Below are positions 8,822 to 21,236 of a stretch of 25,292 nucleotides of DNA, piece after piece. The translations under genes and the position numbers were made by a program. Origin of the DNA: a virus; the IMG/VR virus record IMGVR_UViG_3300033153_002171, positions 1 to 25,292 of that record; one strand, 5' to 3'. Every line of letters starts with the position of its first letter. Position 1 is the first letter of the stretch. Under the pieces are notes generated by a model, which saw nothing but the letters and a program-made list of their open reading frames with translations, did not search any database and was not told the DNA's origin.

Positions 8822-11463
8822 TATAACCACACATCGAGAGTAACTCTCTTACTCGTGGGACTTTCTTCAATCCCTATAATAATAGCATTAACGCCTTGTT
8901 CTAGCCCAAATCTATCATGTGTTATATGTACTATATCACCTATATCATAAGTAAATGATGTAGCTATACTATTTATTCTTAATATTCGTCGTCTTTCACC
9001 ACGCAAATTAATACGTCTATCTAGTTCTATTTGAGCTCTAGTTGCATCCCATATTGTAGTTTCTACAATATCCATATCCTCACCTAATGGATATTCAAGA
9101 ATATCCAACTCTGGAGAAGGCTTAGCTAATATAGTAGAGTATTCATTTTTAAACTCATTTAGTGTATCTAAATTATAATAATCAGAGGTAGTGTCTGTTA
9201 AAGCTCCTGCTAAGGAACCTTCATCTTGTATTTTCCAGTTCTTTTTATAACCTAAAGTTATGGATTTTTTAGGTTCTTCAATTGCAGCTACTTTTAAACC
9301 TCTCTCGATAATATCATCAGGTAGTAAATATAAATTTATGCTATCTGCTAAACCCGGATCGCTTAATAAAACTAACTGTAGTTTACAACCCTCATGTTTA
9401 AAACGCATAAATCCACCAACAGAATTAATTAATTTAGTAGTAGCATTCAATACTGTATCTTCAGTTTTTGAATAAAATCCTAAATAATCTGTATTAGGAA
9501 ATGGTTTCAAAGGTATATCTAAAGTTCCATTACTAAGTATCCAAGAAGAAAAATCGTCATAATAAGTCAACTGGTTTCCAGATTGTACAGAAGAATATAA
9601 ACTAGGGTTTCTAATAGTAATTGAACCTACAGCTAGTGATGTATAACTAGGGAAATTTGACCCTATTGCTGGATAACACTTTACTTCTGCAAAATCATTT
9701 AATTGATTTACTGAAGCAGCTTCTATAGTTATTTTCCAGTAACTCCCAAGATCTTCTACTGAGGTATGAGAAGCAACTGGTGAGATATCACCAGTTACTG
9801 TATCCAAACTTATGTCATTAGTTTCAAGGGTATCACCACTAAAAGATAACCGTAGTGCTGGGAACCTAGATGTTATATTATCTTTTGCTATTTCAATACT
9901 TGCAGTATAAGTAGCAGTAACATCGAATGTATTAATTAAATTAGTAGTACGTATATGAGCCCATTGACTAGTGCTAGCATCTTCTATATATGCATCAGCA
10001 ACACCAAATGTATCATAGCATATATTTAGATTAGATATATCAGCTTTCTCTAGTAATAACCATTCAATAATATCTGCAGCGCTATACTGTATTAGACTCG
10101 GAGCAGTATCTAAACGCTTTATAGATTCACCGTTTTGTCCTATTACATCACATGTAATTTGAGTACCACCATTATGATCTAGTAATCTGAGTATGCCCAT
10201 AGATAAATCATATTCAAACTGATCTGTATCTAAAACTATGCCATTACTTCTTACTTCTGTAATTTCGGTAATACCTTCTAAGCTTTCATGTATTAAATAA
10301 ATATGATTCCAAGAGTCTATAAGTACTGGTTCTATATTAAAACATTTACCTAAACAAATTGGTATATGCGTATCTTCTGTAGCTTCGGGTAAAACTGCTT
10401 TTGCATATGAATATGCATATGGAGTAGTAGTCCCATTACCACCTAGTATATTACCAGTAAATGAGTTATACGTATCAATTTCAGTCATTTTGGATTCCCA
10501 ATACTCTTGATCAATAATATCAGGCTGTAGTACTACATTAAGTATTTCTTTTCTATCACGTAACGCTAGTTGAATATTTTCAGGACTAGTTGACGACACT
10601 GATTCTACAATACCATCTAAAATAATAACAAAGTCATCTCTAGCCCAATCAATATCTCCAATATACAGTCTAACAGTATGTCCAACTACTGTAACATCAT
10701 TTAATAACCAATCATACTCACCATCTGTATTTAATAAATCAATAGCGCCAACAGTACTACTAGAATCAATTCTAGTAATAATATTTGGTACACTTGATAT
10801 GATATCATCATACATTAAATTAGTTCTATATGGGATAGGATAAGAAATAGCTTCCGATCCTTCTGTTATTACTGCCCCCCATATATATGCATCCTTAGTA
10901 TCTGTCCAATCAAAAATGTTTAAACGTAAATCGCCAGATGCACCATTTGTTTGACCACTAACTTCAACTAAATGCCATTCCCCGTCCGATAAATCAGTAA
11001 CTGTATATGCTATATTTGTATTTCCAGTATGATTATATATTGAAATATTTACAGAATCTTCAGTCCATTTTTTCATCCAAAGAGTTGCAGTATATACTGT
11101 ATTAGTCTTAACTGCTACTATCTGGGTAATTTCCTGATTCTCAGGTAGTGTCTTATTTGCTGACTCTGCTGTTAATGTACCATCTGGCGCCGCTATTGCT
11201 TCACCTACTATTGTTACTCCAGCATGGCTCCAAGCATCATCTGTAAAGTCTTTAGGTGCTGTAAGTAAATTAACACTATCAACATAGTGAGTATAATTAC
11301 TTACATCTTCTTCATATATATCACCTGCTGGTTGTATATATGGATATGAAGCAAATCTAGCAGATTGCATTTCTGTAGCATCATGATATTGTAAATCCAT
11401 GATGACTATTCGATGATTATCTGTGCTTAACCATTCAGCTTTTACTTCATCTGTTAAAGCCAT
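8821..11463 (-). CDS. Large tail hub / tip protein with inserted jelly-roll-like domains
   Basis: The 880-residue product follows the tape measure gene, the usual place for hub and tip proteins. The core appears at about residues 1-60, 212-480 and 640-880 (for example IDLLNTDGEYDWLLND, and a C-terminal YDIGDIVHITHDRFG). Two stretches look like carbohydrate-binding-type beta jelly rolls. The first, at about 64-210, starts NLLTAPKDFTDDAWSHAG, then APDGTLTAE, YTATLWMKK and GEWHLVEVSG. The second, at about 490-620, has YTASIEIAKD and LGSYWKITIEA. Such modules are common phage accessory domains. The ATG overlaps the tape measure stop as TAATG, with GGAG upstream. The hub assignment rests on gene order; the inserted domains are recognised by pattern. 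Confidence 0.75.
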   Translation of the reverse strand: MALTDEVKAEWLSTDNHRIVIMDLQYHDATEMQSARFASYPYIQPAGDIYEEDVSNYTHYVDSVNLLTAPKDFTDDAWSHAGVTIVGEAIAAPDGTLTAESANKTLPENQEITQIVAVKTNTVYTATLWMKKWTEDSVNISIYNHTGNTNIAYTVTDLSDGEWHLVEVSGQTNGASGDLRLNIFDWTDTKDAYIWGAVITEGSEAISYPIPYRTNLMYDDIISSVPNIITRIDSSSTVGAIDLLNTDGEYDWLLNDVTVVGHTVRLYIGDIDWARDDFVIILDGIVESVSSTSPENIQLALRDRKEILNVVLQPDIIDQEYWESKMTEIDTYNSFTGNILGGNGTTTPYAYSYAKAVLPEATEDTHIPICLGKCFNIEPVLIDSWNHIYLIHESLEGITEITEVRSNGIVLDTDQFEYDLSMGILRLLDHNGGTQITCDVIGQNGESIKRLDTAPSLIQYSAADIIEWLLLEKADISNLNICYDTFGVADAYIEDASTSQWAHIRTTNLINTFDVTATYTASIEIAKDNITSRFPALRLSFSGDTLETNDISLDTVTGDISPVASHTSVEDLGSYWKITIEAASVNQLNDFAEVKCYPAIGSNFPSYTSLAVGSITIRNPSLYSSVQSGNQLTYYDDFSSWILSNGTLDIPLKPFPNTDYLGFYSKTEDTVLNATTKLINSVGGFMRFKHEGCKLQLVLLSDPGLADSINLYLLPDDIIERGLKVAAIEEPKKSITLGYKKNWKIQDEGSLAGALTDTTSDYYNLDTLNEFKNEYSTILAKPSPELDILEYPLGEDMDIVETTIWDATRAQIELDRRINLRGERRRILRINSIATSFTYDIGDIVHITHDRFGLEQGVNAIIIGIEESPTSKRVTLDVWL

Positions 11464-14400
11464 TATACTACTCCTCTAGTACTAACTGTTCTATTTCCTG
11501 CCATTGATTGAGATATGTCCATAGAAGCCTTAACATTCTGAGAAGCTATATTAGCTATATCTTCTTGACTATCCGCTAATACGAGCGTAAGCTCGTGAAT
11601 TGCGGCAACTACGTCTGCGTTATCTTTAACCTCACCTAATGTAAGAGATCCATTTCTTATACCTTGAGCAAAGCTTTCAGGTACTACTGTCTCACCTTGA
11701 TGAATAGTAGCATTCATATCATAAGGTACTCTAGGAGTACCTATAGCTAATCCAGTGGTTGAAAACTCACCAGTATTACCTTCTATATCATATAAAGCAG
11801 ATGATGTTGCTACACTTTCATAGCTAGGAACAGAAGCTACAGCTATTGCATCTAATATTCTTATTATGTCAGTCCAAGAGCCATCATCAATAGAAGTTAG
11901 CTTATCAATAATACCATCTTTAACATCTAGCATTCCTTCTGTTATTATAGTAGCTATATCATTTTCTAGTGTAGTTTCATTTTGATACTGTAACTCAAGT
12001 AATATACTATCAAGTACGCCTAACTGACTTATAGTAGTAGCGTTTAAATCTTCTATTGCTAATACAGTTTCATCTTTTTTAACTAATAAGTCTGCATCTA
12101 TACCACTTAGTACACTAGTAACTAGATCGAATACTTTAACATATTCTGGCCCTATTGAATAGAACCCAGAAGCCGCTTCTAATAACGAATCAGCACTACT
12201 TAATATATCTGCTGCAGCATCTGCTGCTACTTCTTCATCAGAAGAAAATATATCTGCTGCATTAGATAAGAATTGAGACTCAGCTTCATCTAACCTTTCT
12301 TGGTTAGTTAAAGGCGACGCATCGCTTAGTAATATATCTTCTAAGTATCCTTGTATTTCAGTAGATAAATCTTTATATGCATCTCTTTGAGTTTCAAGTA
12401 ATTCTAACTCTATAGCATACCTATCTATTATAGCATCGTTTAGTTCACCTACTAAAGATATTTCCTCTGATACGCTACCGGGTCCTTCTGTTGATAAACT
12501 ATCAATTACATCTTGGAAGTTAGTAATAAACTCTTCAAACCCACTTGTATCACCTATTAGGCTATCTAAGTTAAGAGAATTAGTACCCTTCTTTAATCTA
12601 TCTACTAATTTATTAATTTTAATAGTAGCAAATGCTAAGCTATCAAATGTTTCTGATGCTTCACTGATTGTTAATATTGAATCAACAATATTAGATATTG
12701 CATCTTCTATTTCATCATTGATTTGTTCAAAAGCGTCTTTAACAATAGCTAATCTTTCTAGCCCATATGCTTGCTCAACTAATGCTAAATCTGAACCTGT
12801 TTCTTCAGCTTCTTTTATAGCATCTGCAAAATCAAAAGCTAACGCTAATAACGCAGCTTCTTTTTCAAGTTGTCCAAATAATACTATTTGTTGTACATAT
12901 TGTTTATTAAGATCTTCTATTTCTTCAGCTAATCCTTGTAGTAGTTCATCTAACATAGTTATAGATGCACCCAACTTAACAGTTGTAGCAAATATATCTG
13001 CGCCGTCTGTACCTATCTCATTACCTGCTAATATGTCTGCATTAAATAGTGAACTATCTATAGCATCATCATAAAAGCTTCTTAAGGCTTCTCCAAAATC
13101 ACCACCATTTTCAGCTAATAAGGTTTCTAAATCGTTGGCTGTAAAGTCATCTACGGAATTAACTAATTCTGTGAATCCATTTTCAATATTAGAAGTAGCA
13201 TTACCTACTGAAATATTAAATAATTCAGTTTCTGAGAATATAGCTCTTGAAAACATTTCAAATATTTCTTGGAATTCATCCATATCTTTAAAGTTTTTCA
13301 GTAGCGCATCTTCCCAAGCTGCAACTACTTCAAGCTTAAATGCTTCAGCCGCTTGTGCAGAAGCTGTATCAATTTTACTTACATATGTACTACTATTAAG
13401 TATATCGAAAGCTGCATCTGTTATTTGTTCTTGAATACTAGCAATTTCTTCTCCTAATGATTCTATAAGAGCAGGATTATCATATACTCGTAAAAATGCT
13501 GTACTAGTATCAGGCTCATTAGGGTCTTGTATAGTTTTATAAGCTGATAACTGCGTTGCTAGATTGCTCTGAGCGACTGATAATTCGCTATTTAATGTAT
13601 CTACCGTTGATTGATAAAGGTTATCAAATACTGAGCCAGCTACCCCACCACTATTGAAGGTTAATGAACCTATTATATCTTCTAATGTTAATCCAACTGT
13701 ACTTAAAGAATTTGACAGTTTAATAGTATCGGCAGAAATTCTAACCATAGTTTCGCCTAATTCTTCTCCGGCTTTTTGATAGTCAGATAAAAATGGTAAT
13801 ACTTCACCTAAAATATCTGAACTTAAAGCTGAGAAATATAGGCCAATTGCTTCGCCTGCCTCTTCAGCACTTAACTCAAATAAGGAAATAAAGTCATCAC
13901 CAAATACATCAAATTGTAGATTAGAAAATATTTTAGACATATCAATGCCACCAACTGCTGAACCGAAAGTATTAATAAGTCCGTTAACTACAGTTAATGT
14001 TTGATCTAATGCTTTATTCATAGCTTCTACTAAATCATCATCAAGAGTACCTGCTACATCTTCATTTATAGATGAAGAGCTAGATGATGAAAATCCGAAC
14101 ATTCCAGAAGACTCTGTTTGTGTTAATACTACAGAACTTTGTCTTAATGTATCAAATAAAGCTTCTAAGCCTTCTGAAGTGGATGTTAATGACGCTGATA
14201 ATTTAATACCAGTATCTATAACACTATTAGTAACTTTAGTTGAACCAAATATCCCGCCTAATACTTTTCCTACTACTCCGCCTAACATTTCATCTAAACC
14301 TAGTGTGAGTGCGTTTGTTATTCCGGTAATTGTATTAATTAATGCTTCATTATTTTGAAAAGTATCAGTACCTAAATTTTCATAATCAGTTACTTTTTCT

Positions 14401-17400
14401 CCTGATATTGATGCAAATACTAATGCACCTATTCTTTCGAATGTTTCACCTAAGTTTTTCATGGTAATTTGTAAGTCACGTGTAGCACTAAATAACTGTG
14501 TATCTATAGCTACTAGATCATCTAGAGAATCAACCATATAGTTACTTTGTAAGTCTCTGTCACGTAAAGCATCAGAACCCATTCTGTCACTATATGCTTC
14601 TTCAGATCCAGCACCGGAAGAACTACTCCCCCCAAACGCTATACCAGCTGCACCAAGTACACCAGTTAATAATGATAGCATAGCTGCTGCTCTGGCAATA
14701 CCTGAATAAGGGTCACCATTACCTGCGTCAGCTACAGCTTTTGCTGCGGACGCTATTGCAGCTGCCTGTTGAATAAGCATAAAGGTTTTAGCAGCATCAG
14801 AACCTTCTTCGAAAGATCCTGCTAGTGCACCCGCCGCATTACCAAGTGCGGACATTGCTGCCGCACTTTTTTCTGTATCTATAGCTTGTTGAGCTACTGG
14901 ATTTTCTTCCCACGTAGAATCTAGAGCTATTTGTGCTTCATCTAACTCTGCCATTTTTGCAGAATATTGAGCAGCAGCTTGCCCAGCTTGAGCAAAACCT
15001 TTTGAAAGTTTACCTAAAGGTCCATCTATACTATCTCCAATTTCTTGTAATAGTAGTAAACCATTAAATAATGAATTCTCTTTACCTTCAAAATTAATCT
15101 TTTGTACAGCTGCTGCAAACTGATTCATAGCTTCAGCAGCACTCTCCATAGATTTAGCTAATTCTGCTTTACGCGCTTCTTTATTAAGCTTCTTCTGTAA
15201 GTTTATTATAAGTTTAATATCTTTAGGATCTAAACCACCAAGAGATTCTTCTTTTCTTTTTAATTTTATTGCTTCTATCTGCGCTCTATTACCCTTAAGA
15301 TTAGCAGCATTTATAACACTTTGTAACTTTAATTCTCTAGTTAATGAATTAATTTTATTTTCCGCAGTTTGTTGCATTAAGATATTATTCTCGATAATAC
15401 CCGCACCTATTAATGCGTTAATATTCGCATATCTATCTCTTAAATCATCTAGAGTTTTATTTATTGCAGTAGCATCTGTTGGAGAAGCAGTTTCTAGTTT
15501 TGCTTCATTTTGTGTTATTTGTCCTGAGACACTAGCTAAATCATTATTTAACCTATTCTGCGTAATTTGATATTCAGTATCTAATCTTTCTTGTAATAAG
15601 CCATTTAAATCTCTATTTAATTGTATCTGCTCACTTATTGAAGACGTGTTTAAATCCTTTGCCTCAATAGCTTGAGCCAAAGCTTGTGTAGACATAATTC
15701 CTGCCTGTGCATAAAACTTATTTAATCCTTCTTGTGCTATACGGGATGCTATAATACCCTCAGCCCACTGTTCTGTTTTACCTGTTATAGTTGCTAAAGT
15801 TTTAGCACTAGTTCTAATTGTATTATCTAAGGATTCATATTTATCCTCTAATCCTACTATTCCTTTATCTTGTAACTTAGTTACTTTAGCTATTTCTTTT
15901 TCAGTGGATAGATATAGCTTCTTAACTAATTCTGCACTTTTACCACGAGTCTTATCTAGTGATAACTGTAATTTCTTTTGTTCACTAGCATTAGTAGCTA
16001 ATCGTCCCTCTACTACTCCTAACTTAGAAGCTAAGTCCAGAGCTCTTTCAGACTTTTTATCTGATATACCAGCTAATTCTTCTAAATGATCCTTTCTTTC
16101 CCCGTTTAATTTATTATCTGCGGCTTTTATTATACTTATACCTTTTAAGGCTGAGTTAGTTTGTATAGTAATAGTTTTTACTTTAAGATCGGTTTCTTTC
16201 TTAAGAATATTAATAACATCAACATTAGTATTTTGTGCATTTAACTTGTCTAAACTTAATAGAGATAAGTCCTCTTTTAATTGGCGAGCAGCATTAGACA
16301 TTTCCTCAAAACGCTCTTGCGCGTCACTAAGGGGTTTTTCTAATTTTTTACCTAGAGAATCCTTTGAAATTTGTAAATTTAACTTAAGTTGATCACCTAT
16401 TGCTTGTAATTTTTGTATAGTGCCTTGTTCTTCTAAAGTGAACTTTCCGTCTTCTTTCATTACTGCTATTACAGCACTGATAGCTTTTAATTGTCCCTCT
16501 ACAAATCGTCCTTCCTCATCTACGTTCTTTAATTCTTTAGATAAATCCTGTAATCCTAAAGTACCTATAGTAAGGGAGCTCATACCTCTTAGTGTATCTG
16601 CAACAGTTTCGAACTCCTTTCCATCTAACCGATTAGCTAATGAAGATAAAGATACTAATGTTTGATCTACACCACCTAATGAAGGTAAAGATCCAAATAA
16701 CTTATTAGTTGCTTTATTTAGAGCTTCAACATTCTCAATTGTAGCTTGGTTAGCTTCTTTTGCTCCACGAGCAAAGCGATGAAGTTTTTCAAGTACACCC
16801 TCGAGTTTCTTTCCGAAACCTTCAGCAGTACCACCACCTTCAATCCAGGACTCAGACATTTCTTTAATATCTTTAGATACTGAAGTTGAAAAGCCAAGTC
16901 TTTCTATTTGCTTAACTATCTTATCTATATTTTCTCTGTATGAATCTAGTTGTCCAGCATTGAATATGTCTAAAAATCCGTCCCACCAACCAAATCCACC
17001 ATCTATATCTATAGCAGAATTAACTTTCTTTAATTGTTCGTGTAGCCCGCCTAATACATTACTTTGTAATGTAAGTTGATCATTAATATTTTCTAATGTT
17101 CTTGGGAGTCTTTCTAAGTTTTTTGCATAATTTTCAGCTGCTGCCGCAGATTTATTAACAGCTACAGTTTGTTCTTCTAATTTTTCTGATAACTTAGCTA
17201 TATCTTCAAACCCAAATATTTTTTTAAGCTTTACATATGTTGAAGATAGTATTTGCCATGCAATAGTTACACCAGCAATAACTGGAACTAAGCTAAATAG
17301 ACCAGCTCCAAAGCTACCAACTACAGAACCTATTTTACTGAACACCTTTACAAATTTGTTTTGTCCTTCTCCAGCTTCCCAAAAGTGCAATAATGCAGTT

Positions 17401-18887
17401 TCAGCTTTAGAAATAAGACCACTTGTAGAAGCTACTGCTGCTGCTGCAACTCCCATTGACGTAGCAAATCCTGCAACCCCTAAAGTTGCTATAGAAGCTG
17501 TACTAGCAACTAGTGTCATCCCTCCAGCTAGCCCGCGCATAGCAACATTGGCTACTTTAGTAGCTTTTGTAGTGTTTTTCAGTTCATTTTTTACAGATAT
17601 TAAGCCATCTCTAGTAGCTTCCAGTGCTTCTCTTTGCGCTAGCATATTTGGTGAAATTACACCCGCTTTGCCTGCCGCACGAGTAACTGCTCCTAGTTGA
17701 CCACGCACACTTCTTAGTGCAGCATCTACTTTATCTACAGCTGCTGCATTTTTGTTCATAATTATATCAAAAGGCTTACTACCTTCTGTTATATTTGCTT
17801 CTGATATAGCAGACTTAGATAAAGATTCTGCAGAGGCTTTTGCTTTCTGTATATTATCAGACCAAGCTTTAGTTTTATCACTTAAAACTTTAAATGCGTT
17901 ACCCATTTTAGTAGCTGCGTTAATACCAGTAACAGCCATTCCTGCTAATGCAGGCAATGCTTGCTTAGCAACTGAAGTCGCTAATAATAATATTGCAGCT
18001 GTAAGAGATGCAATATTTTCTGTAAAGAAACCTATAAATCCGCTTAATGGTATATTAACTAAATTCACTAACTGAGTTGTAATGTCTGAAAAGGCGGCAG
18101 CTAGTTGTGTAAATGGATTAGGGTCTACATTTGATAGACGACCGAACTTCTTCTCCCCTTGTTCTAAGACTTCATTAACTACTGCTTGTTGCTTTTCGAA
18201 TGTTGTTAGTTCTTTTGCTGTTTTACCAAGAGCTGTGGCGTACTTATTAGCTGCTGTTTCTAACCTAAGTATAATACCTAATTCATCTAATAGTTCTGGT
18301 TCTGCTTTAATTGCACCCTTGAACACACGATTTAAGGAATCTGTCATTTCCCGACCTAAAGCTACTGAAGCATTTCTTGCAACCTGAGCTAGCTGTTCAA
18401 TTGTAGAATTATCAAATCCTGCAGACGCAGCAATACTGGCCTGTACCAAAGCTTCCTTCATGGAAATGGCAGAACCAGTAATTTCTTTCATATTTTCAGC
18501 AAGGCTAGTTAATGAACGACCCGTTTGTACAGCAAGAGAATCTGCAGAATCAATTAATATTTGAAAATCCGCAGCGCGTTCAAGCGCGCCGAAAGCAGCT
18601 GTGATAGCAAATACATTAGCAGCAACTGTAGCATAAACAGGTACGATACCTGTCATTTGTTGCGCCATTTTAGAAAATGCATGTGTAGCATTATTAGTTA
18701 AGTCACCTACACCTTTATTTTTCTTAACATAATCATTAGCACCTTTATTGGTTTTCTTTTGTGCTTTATGTACTTTTGTTTGACCTTCAACGAACTTTTC
18801 ACCCTCTTTATTAATGTCTTTCATTAATTTAAGGGCTGGTTCTCCTTTAGCGTTAATTACAATTGTATATACTTTATCAGCTGCCAT
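11463..18887 (-). CDS. Tape measure protein
   Basis: The 2474-residue protein is by far the longest in the window and directly follows the tail chaperone frames. It spans the tail lumen during assembly and sets tail length. The N-terminal 60 residues are basic and helical. Hydrophobic, Ala/Gly-rich segments that could be membrane-active lie at about residues 275-320, 445-490, 515-545 and 1370-1425. Long coiled-coil-like stretches fill about 560-1330 and 1600-2250. The C-terminus carries TPRVPYDMNATIHQGETVVP, a motif frequent at the ends of tape measure proteins. The ATG follows the chaperone stop directly, with GGAAAG as ribosome site. No lysozyme or peptidase domain was noticed. Confidence 0.93.
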   Translation of the reverse strand: MAADKVYTIVINAKGEPALKLMKDINKEGEKFVEGQTKVHKAQKKTNKGANDYVKKNKGVGDLTNNATHAFSKMAQQMTGIVPVYATVAANVFAITAAFGALERAADFQILIDSADSLAVQTGRSLTSLAENMKEITGSAISMKEALVQASIAASAGFDNSTIEQLAQVARNASVALGREMTDSLNRVFKGAIKAEPELLDELGIILRLETAANKYATALGKTAKELTTFEKQQAVVNEVLEQGEKKFGRLSNVDPNPFTQLAAAFSDITTQLVNLVNIPLSGFIGFFTENIASLTAAILLLATSVAKQALPALAGMAVTGINAATKMGNAFKVLSDKTKAWSDNIQKAKASAESLSKSAISEANITEGSKPFDIIMNKNAAAVDKVDAALRSVRGQLGAVTRAAGKAGVISPNMLAQREALEATRDGLISVKNELKNTTKATKVANVAMRGLAGGMTLVASTASIATLGVAGFATSMGVAAAAVASTSGLISKAETALLHFWEAGEGQNKFVKVFSKIGSVVGSFGAGLFSLVPVIAGVTIAWQILSSTYVKLKKIFGFEDIAKLSEKLEEQTVAVNKSAAAAENYAKNLERLPRTLENINDQLTLQSNVLGGLHEQLKKVNSAIDIDGGFGWWDGFLDIFNAGQLDSYRENIDKIVKQIERLGFSTSVSKDIKEMSESWIEGGGTAEGFGKKLEGVLEKLHRFARGAKEANQATIENVEALNKATNKLFGSLPSLGGVDQTLVSLSSLANRLDGKEFETVADTLRGMSSLTIGTLGLQDLSKELKNVDEEGRFVEGQLKAISAVIAVMKEDGKFTLEEQGTIQKLQAIGDQLKLNLQISKDSLGKKLEKPLSDAQERFEEMSNAARQLKEDLSLLSLDKLNAQNTNVDVINILKKETDLKVKTITIQTNSALKGISIIKAADNKLNGERKDHLEELAGISDKKSERALDLASKLGVVEGRLATNASEQKKLQLSLDKTRGKSAELVKKLYLSTEKEIAKVTKLQDKGIVGLEDKYESLDNTIRTSAKTLATITGKTEQWAEGIIASRIAQEGLNKFYAQAGIMSTQALAQAIEAKDLNTSSISEQIQLNRDLNGLLQERLDTEYQITQNRLNNDLASVSGQITQNEAKLETASPTDATAINKTLDDLRDRYANINALIGAGIIENNILMQQTAENKINSLTRELKLQSVINAANLKGNRAQIEAIKLKRKEESLGGLDPKDIKLIINLQKKLNKEARKAELAKSMESAAEAMNQFAAAVQKINFEGKENSLFNGLLLLQEIGDSIDGPLGKLSKGFAQAGQAAAQYSAKMAELDEAQIALDSTWEENPVAQQAIDTEKSAAAMSALGNAAGALAGSFEEGSDAAKTFMLIQQAAAIASAAKAVADAGNGDPYSGIARAAAMLSLLTGVLGAAGIAFGGSSSSGAGSEEAYSDRMGSDALRDRDLQSNYMVDSLDDLVAIDTQLFSATRDLQITMKNLGETFERIGALVFASISGEKVTDYENLGTDTFQNNEALINTITGITNALTLGLDEMLGGVVGKVLGGIFGSTKVTNSVIDTGIKLSASLTSTSEGLEALFDTLRQSSVVLTQTESSGMFGFSSSSSSSINEDVAGTLDDDLVEAMNKALDQTLTVVNGLINTFGSAVGGIDMSKIFSNLQFDVFGDDFISLFELSAEEAGEAIGLYFSALSSDILGEVLPFLSDYQKAGEELGETMVRISADTIKLSNSLSTVGLTLEDIIGSLTFNSGGVAGSVFDNLYQSTVDTLNSELSVAQSNLATQLSAYKTIQDPNEPDTSTAFLRVYDNPALIESLGEEIASIQEQITDAAFDILNSSTYVSKIDTASAQAAEAFKLEVVAAWEDALLKNFKDMDEFQEIFEMFSRAIFSETELFNISVGNATSNIENGFTELVNSVDDFTANDLETLLAENGGDFGEALRSFYDDAIDSSLFNADILAGNEIGTDGADIFATTVKLGASITMLDELLQGLAEEIEDLNKQYVQQIVLFGQLEKEAALLALAFDFADAIKEAEETGSDLALVEQAYGLERLAIVKDAFEQINDEIEDAISNIVDSILTISEASETFDSLAFATIKINKLVDRLKKGTNSLNLDSLIGDTSGFEEFITNFQDVIDSLSTEGPGSVSEEISLVGELNDAIIDRYAIELELLETQRDAYKDLSTEIQGYLEDILLSDASPLTNQERLDEAESQFLSNAADIFSSDEEVAADAAADILSSADSLLEAASGFYSIGPEYVKVFDLVTSVLSGIDADLLVKKDETVLAIEDLNATTISQLGVLDSILLELQYQNETTLENDIATIITEGMLDVKDGIIDKLTSIDDGSWTDIIRILDAIAVASVPSYESVATSSALYDIEGNTGEFSTTGLAIGTPRVPYDMNATIHQGETVVPESFAQGIRNGSLTLGEVKDNADVVAAIHELTLVLADSQEDIANIASQNVKASMDISQSMAGNRTVSTRGVV

Positions 18888-19220
18888 TTACTTTCCTGAT
18901 TTGCGCTTAGACTTCGCCTTTTCTTGACGTTGTTTTTCTGCTCTATTTTTTGAAACTATGTTGTTTATTATAATAAGGAATTGCATTAGTTGTGAGTGGT
19001 TTTCTATACCATAAACTTCATGTGCTAGGTAGGGGAGGATTGAATAATCCTTACCTAAGAATGTTCCTCCGAACCCTTCCCAGACATCCGGAAGGATACT
19101 ATAAATAAGTATAGCATCCCTTACCGGTTTTGGAAAATCTTCAAAACTTGCTGGTATTTCTGAAGGTACTGGCGTCTTATTGAGTTGCTCGCACATCATT
19201 AAATACTTTTTCTTATCCAT
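18888..19220 (-). CDS. Tail assembly chaperone, second frame (gpT-like extension)
   Basis: From the ATG this is 110 residues, ending in a strongly basic tail (RQEKAKSKRKSGK). The frame is open upstream of the ATG to the slippery site at 19286, adding 22 residues (starting YEEQLSLLEAKL) without a stop. No good ribosome site precedes the ATG. It is therefore best read as the C-terminal part of a -1 frameshift product joining codons 1-144 of the upstream frame to 132 more residues (276 in all, span 18888-19717). The fused form would bind the tape measure and recruit tail-tube subunits, as gpGT does in lambda. Independent translation of the short form cannot be ruled out. Confidence 0.85.
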   Translation of the reverse strand: MDKKKYLMMCEQLNKTPVPSEIPASFEDFPKPVRDAILIYSILPDVWEGFGGTFLGKDYSILPYLAHEVYGIENHSQLMQFLIIINNIVSKNRAEKQRQEKAKSKRKSGK

Positions 19221-19263
19221 TTTTATATCACTATGTGCATAAAAATCTTCAAGTTTCGCTTCT

Positions 19264-19292
19264 AGCAGGCTTAACTGCTCTTCGTAAAATTT
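19264..19292 (-). promoter_or_regulatory. -1 programmed frameshift signal (AAATTTT plus hairpin)
   Basis: On the minus strand the heptamer A-AAT-TTT at 19292-19286 is in the correct phase (X XXY YYZ) at codons 143-144 of the chaperone gene. Six bases later AGCAG (19279-19275) can pair with CTGCT (19268-19264) around a six-base loop, a weak stimulatory hairpin. A -1 slip places ribosomes in the downstream frame, which is open to 18888. The zero-frame stop comes only four codons after the site. Confidence 0.83.
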
Positions 19293-19717
19293 TCTACATC
19301 ATCTAGTAGGTTACTAATGAAACTGTCAAATTCTGAGCAGTTCTTCATTAATACACCCGCGTTCTGTATAGAGAAGTCTAATTCTCCATCTAGTTTATCT
19401 ACAGGCTCCTTTCCTTCTTCCGTTGGAATTTCTGGAACGTCACTTTCATTCATAGGTATCATTTTTAATAGATATCTATATTTAAGTCCTTTCCATCCTT
19501 TTACTACTGCCTTTATATAAAGGTCTTGGAATAAATCACTATCTACATCCTCTTCTGGTACATGTGATTTTTTGTTGTATTTTTGTGTTGTAGCTTTTTC
19601 ACGTAACTTAGTAAGTTCTTCTCGTGTTTGGTATGCTACAGTTACTTCGAATCCATCGAATCTCGCATATTCTGCGTCTATTGTCATGCTTGGTACTAAT
19701 AATTTGGCTAAATCCAT
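19271..19717 (-). CDS. Tail assembly chaperone (gpG-like)
   Basis: The 148-residue product is encoded between the tail tube and tape measure genes, where siphovirus tail assembly chaperones lie. It has an N-terminal beta region (IDAEYARFDGFEVTVAYQTREE), a helical middle (DLFQDLYIKAVVKGWKGLKY) and an acidic C-terminal helix. The helical middle resembles what is seen in other gpG-like chaperones. The ATG is preceded by a strong AAGGAGAA site. Near its end, a slippery heptamer allows about 132 extra residues to be added from the -1 frame. The chaperone would coat the tape measure and be shed as tail-tube subunits polymerise. Confidence 0.85.
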   Translation of the reverse strand: MDLAKLLVPSMTIDAEYARFDGFEVTVAYQTREELTKLREKATTQKYNKKSHVPEEDVDSDLFQDLYIKAVVKGWKGLKYRYLLKMIPMNESDVPEIPTEEGKEPVDKLDGELDFSIQNAGVLMKNCSEFDSFISNLLDDVENFTKSS

Positions 19718-19748: not shown

Positions 19749-19781
19749 AAAAATTGCGGAGCCCCATAATTAGGGCTCCGC
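19749..19781 (-). terminator. Intrinsic terminator after the tail tube gene
   Basis: GCGGAGCCC (19756-19764) and GGGCTCCGC (19773-19781) form a nine-base-pair stem with an eight-base loop. On the minus strand the stem is followed by AA and five T. It lies just after the tail tube stop and before the chaperone gene. Partial termination here would raise tail tube transcripts relative to the chaperones and tape measure. Confidence 0.88.
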
Positions 19782-19787
19782 TGTGCT

Positions 19788-21236
19788 TTATGATACGTCG
19801 TAGTGACTAATTGTTAATTCATTAGTTGCTTCGAAGCTTCCTTCTTCCTCACCTGTAGCACCTGTATGAGGTTTAGAGATAAAACTAATCTCTGTTGTTA
19901 TAACATCTTCTACACCAATTGTTGGTACAGATAATTGACATACAGGTAAAAAGAACTCAACTCTTCGTGTTGTGTCTCCACCCATCTTGAATATTAGTTG
20001 ATAGTTATTACTAACTGATTGCTCAATTTTTCCTAACATATCCGCTAATAGACCACCTGAACCTTCCGCTCCAGTATTTAGATAAGCAGTTAAGCTTCCA
20101 GATACTACTCGGTTACCGGCGAATCCTGCTAAAGGTTTGTTTACAATAGCTAATTCTTCTGGTGTTAAGTATGTAACATTATTCTCTAATGTTACAGTTG
20201 CACCAGTAATTGGTATGTCATACACTATTGGTGCATCTTGTAGCTTAGAATAAATTATACACTCATCTCCGCTAACCCAACCATTAGTTTGAGCAGTACT
20301 TCCATCTGGGGCATTGTCTACTGTTAATGTCTCCGTAGACGTTAGATCTATAATAGTTCTATATTCGTCTCGATCAACATTATATATTCTACCACCAAAT
20401 AGCGTATCACCCGCTAGTACTAGAGCAGCTTCATTTACTAAGAAAGTCATAGTATCTATAAAGCTAATTAAGTTATCTGCCGCTCCTGCTGATTCTGCTG
20501 TACCATTAGCATATTCTGGACTTGAATCAGTAACGTTTTGTTTAAGTGTTAAAACACTTAGTTTATTACGTAAGAATGAATTAGCATCTGTAGTAGGTAC
20601 CGCAGTATAATTAACATTAGCATCTAAGGTATCAAAATATAATTTAGTTTTGTCAGTATCTTCAGAAACTAAAGATCCTTGTCCACTCCAGTTAATAGCA
20701 GCGATGCCATCAATACTGAAATCTACTTCGGCAGTAGCTACAGTGAAGTTATCTATACGATATGTAATACCTTCTAATACAAAGTATAAAGTTAAAGGCA
20801 TTAATTCGTTATTATTTGAGGAGTCTAATCCCATTGTCATTACTAAGTCATCTTGTACTGTTAGTGTTGCATCTGCCGCACCTGCTGCTGCTTCAAAACC
20901 TGTAAGAGTGCCCATAGCTGAGCCCCATAATACACGTTCTGTACAATCTGATGAATCATTAGAAGCTCCTTGATTATCAAGTGCATTTTCATATACACGT
21001 ACATATGTACTGAATGAAACATCAGCTGGGTTAAGTGCTGTATTGAATGCTTGAGTACCACGAACAGGTGAAGACCCGGCTTCGTTGATACCAATCTCTA
21101 CATTAGTTGTGTCTTGTGAGAAAGAATAACCATCTAATACTTTTATTTCAAAAAGATTAGTTGTGTCATTAGAATCAATACCACCACTTTCAGTAGATAT
21201 ATATAATTCCGTACTTCTAGATAAATTTCTAGCCAT
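19788..21236 (-). CDS. Major tail tube protein
   Basis: The 482-residue product is close in length to the T5 tail tube protein (about 464). The first 90 residues follow a pattern seen in siphovirus tube subunits: a TELYIST strand, FEIKVLDGYSFSQDT, a basic loop SSPVRGTQAFNTALNP, then VSFSTYVRVYE. Later regions are beta-rich and may form a second, tube-surface domain. The gene is followed by a strong intrinsic terminator and preceded by AGGAGAA, both expected for a highly expressed structural protein. A contractile sheath of similar length was considered but no sheath-like signature was seen. Confidence 0.85.
   Translation of the reverse strand: MARNLSRSTELYISTESGGIDSNDTTNLFEIKVLDGYSFSQDTTNVEIGINEAGSSPVRGTQAFNTALNPADVSFSTYVRVYENALDNQGASNDSSDCTERVLWGSAMGTLTGFEAAAGAADATLTVQDDLVMTMGLDSSNNNELMPLTLYFVLEGITYRIDNFTVATAEVDFSIDGIAAINWSGQGSLVSEDTDKTKLYFDTLDANVNYTAVPTTDANSFLRNKLSVLTLKQNVTDSSPEYANGTAESAGAADNLISFIDTMTFLVNEAALVLAGDTLFGGRIYNVDRDEYRTIIDLTSTETLTVDNAPDGSTAQTNGWVSGDECIIYSKLQDAPIVYDIPITGATVTLENNVTYLTPEELAIVNKPLAGFAGNRVVSGSLTAYLNTGAEGSGGLLADMLGKIEQSVSNNYQLIFKMGGDTTRRVEFFLPVCQLSVPTIGVEDVITTEISFISKPHTGATGEEEGSFEATNELTISHYDVS

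Follow-up and report, generated by a model that had tools for sequence, protein, structure and literature searches.

Results

The tail module

The DNA analysed here (the window) is a virus record of 25,292 bases, the minus strand of which carries a siphovirus tail module in the order tail terminator, major tail protein, ORF A, ORF B and tape measure (Table 1). ORF A and ORF B occupy overlapping frames between the major tail protein and tape measure genes, and the products match tail assembly chaperone families: phrog_313 for ORF A, and phrog_3914 (E 5e-16) for the 132-aa reading that leads into ORF B. The Pfam family Phage_TAC_4 matched the chaperone products below its cut-off only. Although a megablast search against phage isolates found no near relative of the window, protein relatives were recognized among the T5-like phages. 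The best ones for ORF A, by tblastn, are from T5-like Vibrio phages (31%, E 6e-16), to which the N-terminus of the tape measure protein is also related (41%, E 2e-40), and ORF B has a relative among T5-like phages at E 4e-10.

A strong terminator-like hairpin (positions 19756-19781, minus strand), with 11 pairs of which 8 are G-C and a following AATTTTT, lies between the major tail protein gene and ORF A, so that transcription of the chaperones and the tape measure may be weaker than that of the major tail protein.

Table 1. Features of the tail module and of the predicted frameshift region
Feature	Position	Strand	Remarks
Tail terminator	21723-21295	-	phrog_3907
Major tail protein	19788..21236	-	directly upstream of ORF A; phrog_3575, E 2e-58
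Shine-Dalgarno sequence of ORF A	19732-19727	-	AAGGAG
ORF A, putative zero-frame tail assembly chaperone	19271..19717	-	148 aa, gpG-like; phrog_313, E 2e-10
Slippery heptamer A_AAT_TTT	19286..19292	-	in phase with ORF A, codons 142-144
Small hairpin AGCAG-TTAAGC-CTGCT	19264..19279	-	6 nt past the heptamer; -5.9 kcal/mol
Zero-frame stop of ORF A	19271..19273	-	TAA
Linker in the -1 frame, slip site to first in-frame ATG	19221..19285	-	YEEQLSLLEAKLEDFYAHSDIK; the Tyr codon starts with the last T of the heptamer
ORF B from its first ATG	18888..19220	-	110 aa, gpT-like domain; homologue of T5.142
Predicted A-B frameshift fusion	18888..19717	-	276 aa, gpGT-like
Tape measure protein	11463..18887	-	directly downstream of ORF B; phrog_3779, E 1e-54

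The predicted slip site and the open -1 frame

ORF A ends in the codons GAT GAT GTA GAA AAT TTT ACG AAG AGC AGT TAA (..D V E N F T K S S *), in which GAA AAT TTT are codons 142-144 and four sense codons precede the stop. The initial annotation had read here an in-phase A_AAT_TTT heptamer four codons ahead of the zero-frame stop, and its coordinates proved right. No stop interrupts the -1 frame between a point 28 nt ahead of the end of the ORF A stop and position 18888. After a slip of one base backward the junction would read ..ENF-YEEQLSLL.., and translation would go on as YEEQLSLLEAKLEDFY.. for 132 aa; with the 144 aa of ORF A this yields the same 276-residue fusion that had been proposed. 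In the -1 frame, an ATG, GTG or TTG first occurs at codon 23 past the slip, at position 19220 and 51 nt beyond the ORF A stop, and no Shine-Dalgarno-like sequence stands ahead of it, in agreement with the annotation, which had found no good ribosome site for ORF B.

Within the window by itself, the heptamer was rejected as a statistical anomaly. AAATTTT occurs there 7 times against 13 expected, and the probability of the heptamer, given the amino acids E-N-F and the codon usage of the genes themselves, is 0.22 from the window alone. We judge it to be more than chance because of the comparative evidence from relatives with the same geometry.

Homologous gene pairs

Relatives were collected from IMG/VR with ORF B and tape-measure queries, with two more from genome contigs, taking the best 80 matches per scan; a search with ORF A alone found no related locus. 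A profile of ORF B placed this frame in 372 of 374 loci, and ORF A was assigned to the long ORF whose end coincides with the upstream edge of ORF B. The pair count omits eight loci that lacked a long ORF A, which are mostly cut contigs. The remaining set comprises 293 non-redundant pairs, mostly from uncultured phage contigs together with T5-like isolates, and counts of these pairs share ancestry and are not independent. Among the matches listed, ORF B is in the -1 frame relative to ORF A in 139 pairs and in the +1 frame in 154.

An in-phase X_XXY_YYZ heptamer near the zero-frame stop is conserved in 138 of the 139 -1 pairs listed: A_AAT_TTT in 77, A_AAT_TTC in 14 (together 91) and G_GGA_AAC in 47, with one pair, from the L022 group, having T_AAT_TTT in place of a perfect heptamer. 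The initial annotation had proposed conservation of the heptamer and of the open -1 frame in related phages as a check, and had named homologues with frames split by stops, or with the heptamer lost, as evidence that would speak against slippage. In all 139 of these homologues the two frames are connected, and 138 have a slippery heptamer, so that this check was passed. The reading as tail-chaperone slippage gains support from the -1 homologues, but the family does not share one mechanism throughout, since the other 154 homologues have the +1 frame.

In one subclade of the -1 homologues, G_GGA_AAC lies one codon earlier in place of AAT_TTT; this swap for A_AAT_TTY suggests that slipperiness was kept, rather than a particular sequence. 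Near-identical contigs (L022-L027) have the -1 geometry with T_AAT_TTT instead of A_AAT_TTT, which keeps only the A-site re-pairing on U_UUU, and so present a natural test of whether slippage on the tetramer suffices.

Representatives, 44 of the -1 group and 57 of the +1 group, were scored against expectations from their own codon usage. An X_XXY_YYZ heptamer is present at this codon in 42 of the 44, against 17.8 expected (nominal P 5e-17, which ignores relatedness). TTT_CG is present in all 57, against 19.6 expected (nominal P 3e-29, which likewise ignores relatedness), and as the +1 set was scored at TTT_CG itself, its figure is more optimistic than that of the -1 set. The motif of the other group was found in no representative of either group; the window and its clade have the -1 geometry and lack the junction of the T5 type, with no TTT_CG at the site in the 44 representatives.

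Comparison of two of the loci (L002:3430-4200 against L003) revealed an ORF of about 236 aa between ORF B and the tape measure gene of L002, with an HNH-like look (HVDHIIPL). It matched no Pfam family and no Rfam intron, and may be a homing endonuclease insertion beside the tail chaperone genes.

The +1 relatives

All 154 of the +1 pairs among the matches listed have TTT_CGN (CGT in 132, CGC in 15 and CGA in seven), usually at the homologous Asn-Phe codons. Every cultured T5-like phage with readable frames falls into this set, among them T5 (T5.143/T5.142, with the UUU at 97074-97072 of AY543070), pVp-1, AG74, PG07, Gostya9, KEY, PSTCR5, Roth50 and DU_PP_V. The annotators of AKFV33 noted no ribosome-binding site for ORF B.

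The codon before TTT in the +1 representatives is AAC in 39 and AAT in 10, though AAT is the commoner of the two elsewhere (59%), as if AAT were avoided in those homologues in which a -1 slip would do harm.

Two further T5-like phages of the Shenzhenvirus group, AhSzq-1 (L012, NC_047949) and AhP_Mru1 (L127, PV190393), were excluded from the count because of in-frame TAG codons, which are the only interruptions of their tail genes. In AhSzq-1, which has TTT_CGA at the expected place, ORF A contains five TAG codons and ORF B four, ahead of a terminal TGA or TAA, and 500 codons of the AhP_Mru1 tape measure contain 21 in-frame stops, all of them TAG. TAG thus looks recoded as a sense codon in these genes. 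A search of 40 kb of AhSzq-1 detected no tRNA. Sporadic stop reassignment in the Demerecviridae has been mentioned (PMC11210395).

Selection on the linker

The 22 codons of the -1 frame between the slip site and the first ATG of the window contain no ATG, GTG or TTG, and in 125 of 138 -1 loci the first ATG lies at least 15 codons past the slip. Across the -1 homologues, pN/pS of this linker is 0.42 in the -1 frame, versus 0.87 and 1.32 in the other frames, and the in-frame value for the linker of the +1 set, from few usable pairs, is 0.33. The -1-frame linker is therefore under selection at the protein level. Independent initiation would leave it untranslated, and the selected, startless linker is indirect evidence that the downstream frame is translated through the shift.

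This bears on the best of the alternatives, by which ORF B would be a separate gene with its own ATG, expressed by reinitiation or coupling after the ORF A stop, and the -1 frame and heptamer would be incidental. The ATG at 19220 is indeed followed by the conserved domain, and GenBank annotators give separate genes in most T5-like phages. However, that ATG lies well past the stop and has no Shine-Dalgarno sequence, the roughly 22 codons ahead of it are conserved as -1-frame protein, and both the heptamers (138 of 139) and TTT_CGN (154 of 154) persist, which together make a separate ORF B very improbable.

Transcriptional slippage at AAAATTTT, by which bases gained or lost in the mRNA would join the frames, is less probable still. 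The site is A/T-rich, and such slippage has been proposed for transposase families whose orthologues go in both directions (PMC3711429). But the runs are of just four A and four T, no run longer than these is present in many of the homologues with TTT_CGN or G_GGA_AAC, and the motif is phase-locked to the codons, although slippage of RNA polymerase needs no phase.

RNA structure downstream of the slip site

The small hairpin that the initial annotation had described after a six-base spacer is present at that place, but it is weak in the window: the 67-nt stretch containing it has a z of +1.11, and folding as good or better is seen in 180 of 200 shuffles. It was accordingly rejected as strong local evidence. 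Two members of the window's own subclade (L001 and L022) have hairpins of 6-7 bp at the same place, compared with 5 bp in the window. In another subclade (that of L047), a 9-bp stem of CAAGTAGCT with AGCTACTTG starts 8 nt past the heptamer. RNAalifold called no consensus structure on the 55-row alignment of this subclade, though the named pairs covary, so the pairs were counted directly. Over the 55 sequences, 81% of the cells are paired, and 54 cells are changed on both sides, versus 23.6 in shuffles and 1-22 in slid controls. The downstream hairpin is thus supported in the relatives, especially in the L047 subclade, and weakly in the window itself. Set against the canonical bacterial -1 site with its 3' stimulator, the family offers the covarying stem of that subclade, alongside the positive z of the window and the empty RNAalifold result. 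An Rfam search found no RNA family.

The 70 nt downstream have a mean folding z of -2.03 in the -1 group, compared with -0.23 in the +1 group; in a finer profile the corresponding values are -1.75 and -0.33. Because a second low folding-energy value occurs 120 nt downstream in the -1 group, local stability alone is not specific, and the low folding energy after the slip site is suggestive only.

A probable change of direction at one codon

The residues around the junction can be aligned between the two groups: ..IENF-RN in AG74 corresponds to ..VENF-TKSS in the window, and ETERRKLL to YEEQLSLL after the shift. The nucleotide geometries, TTT-C-GAA with one base skipped and TTT-AC-GAA with one base reread, differ by a single base past the shared Phe codon, so that, as judged from the alignment, one indel could flip the direction of the shift. 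Among the matches listed, 14 loci (L208, L302 and L309 among them) have the dual motif GAA_AAT_TTT_CGY, that is, the -1 heptamer in the +1 geometry, and are plausible as the intermediate.

Trees of A plus B were built for 101 and for 72 representatives with the slip-site columns removed. Both contain one direction change, on a branch with support 100/99 that was recovered in 100% of the bootstraps, and all of the -1 loci lie on one side of this single branch. Many of the loci are metagenome contigs, and the two geometries might be put down to sequencing or assembly errors instead of a difference between clades; this can be dismissed, as the frame relation follows the tree with one change in either set and is consistent across many independent samples and finished isolate genomes.

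It is likely, from these comparisons, that the direction of frameshifting flipped between +1 (P-site slippage on UUU_CGN) and -1 (tandem slippage on A_AAU_UUY or G_GGA_AAC) at one orthologous codon, with both mechanisms operating as we infer. The route that goes with this reading, and is equally likely, is a single-base indel by way of the dual-motif intermediate A_AAU_UUU_CGY, and the fusion protein would have been kept. Midpoint rooting nests the -1 group beside the environmental +1 group, with the T5-like phages outside. This tentatively suggests +1 as the older state, in a tree that is itself unrooted and in which a root on the -1 branch would undo the order.

Discussion

Taken as a pair of the lambda gpG/gpGT type, ORF A and ORF B would be expressed as follows. 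Most ribosomes would finish ORF A, and in a minority tRNA-Asn and tRNA-Phe on AAU_UUU would slip back by one base to AAA_UUU and read on through ORF B to give the fusion. We consider it very probable (about 0.9), from the sequence comparisons, that such a -1 frameshift operates in the window and joins ORF A and ORF B as gpG/gpGT-like products. In T5 and the large environmental group, by comparison, the P-site tRNA would slip by +1 on UUU_C with CGN in the A site.

In lambda, binding to the tape measure is the task of the G part and recruitment of the major tail protein that of the T part; the ratio of the products matters, and the heptamer is GGGAAAG. The window is similar in that the pair stands between the major tail protein and the tape measure, encodes a short product and a predicted rarer fusion, and has a -1 X_XXY_YYZ heptamer near the stop; the roles of G and T may be carried over to ORF A and ORF B by homology. 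It differs in its heptamer, A_AAT_TTT, in its families (phrog_313 and phrog_3914), and in having orthologues with the +1 geometry. The closer comparison is with T5.143/T5.142 and their homologues in the Demerecviridae, which share homologous proteins, the gene neighbourhood and Asn/Thr-Phe junction codons with the window, whereas their ORF B lies in the +1 frame behind TTT_CGN.

The G-T frameshift is described as conserved in tailed phages (Xu et al. 2004, as cited in PMC5009743); it is well established, goes mostly in the -1 direction, and is very likely +1 in HSTV-2 (PMC5009743). In E. coli with a strong stimulator, 61 of 64 heptamers shifted measurably, and A_AAU_UUU and G_GGA_AAC are not among the three that failed (PMC4066793). 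As for +1, UCC_UUU_CGU of influenza A PA-X is a demonstrated site at which the P-site tRNA-Phe slips from UUU to UUC, and the authors predict a class of UUU_C stimulators of +1 shifting (PMC3498833). PA-X shares UUU_CGU with the +1 relatives and not with the window, and it is a eukaryotic-viral case.

Among the tail chaperones of haloarchaeal viruses, HSTV-2 has a +1 shift and HVTV-1 and HCTV-1/2/5 have -1 shifts (PMC5009743). These resemble the present family in that counterpart tail frameshifts differ in direction across tailed viruses, but they set a myovirus against siphoviruses, and not one codon of clear orthologues. The GeneTack work found the direction to be conserved among orthologues with ribosomal frameshifting (PMC3711429), and the announcement of Sugarland gives T5 and Sugarland as lacking a predicted frameshift signal (PMC6256483). 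In the open-access literature we found no report of a +1 signal in T5 or the Demerecviridae, or of clear orthologues that switch direction at a single codon. So, although the -1 frameshift of tail chaperones is known, the use of opposite mechanisms at one homologous codon across orthologues seems to be new.

The reading of A and B as chaperone and fusion would assign a shared function to two ORFs that in most annotations stand as separate proteins. If the reading with two directions is true, T5 uses a +1 frameshift that has been overlooked, and the evolution of recoding signals becomes testable in a family in which the codon position and the product seem to have been kept while the mechanism changed.
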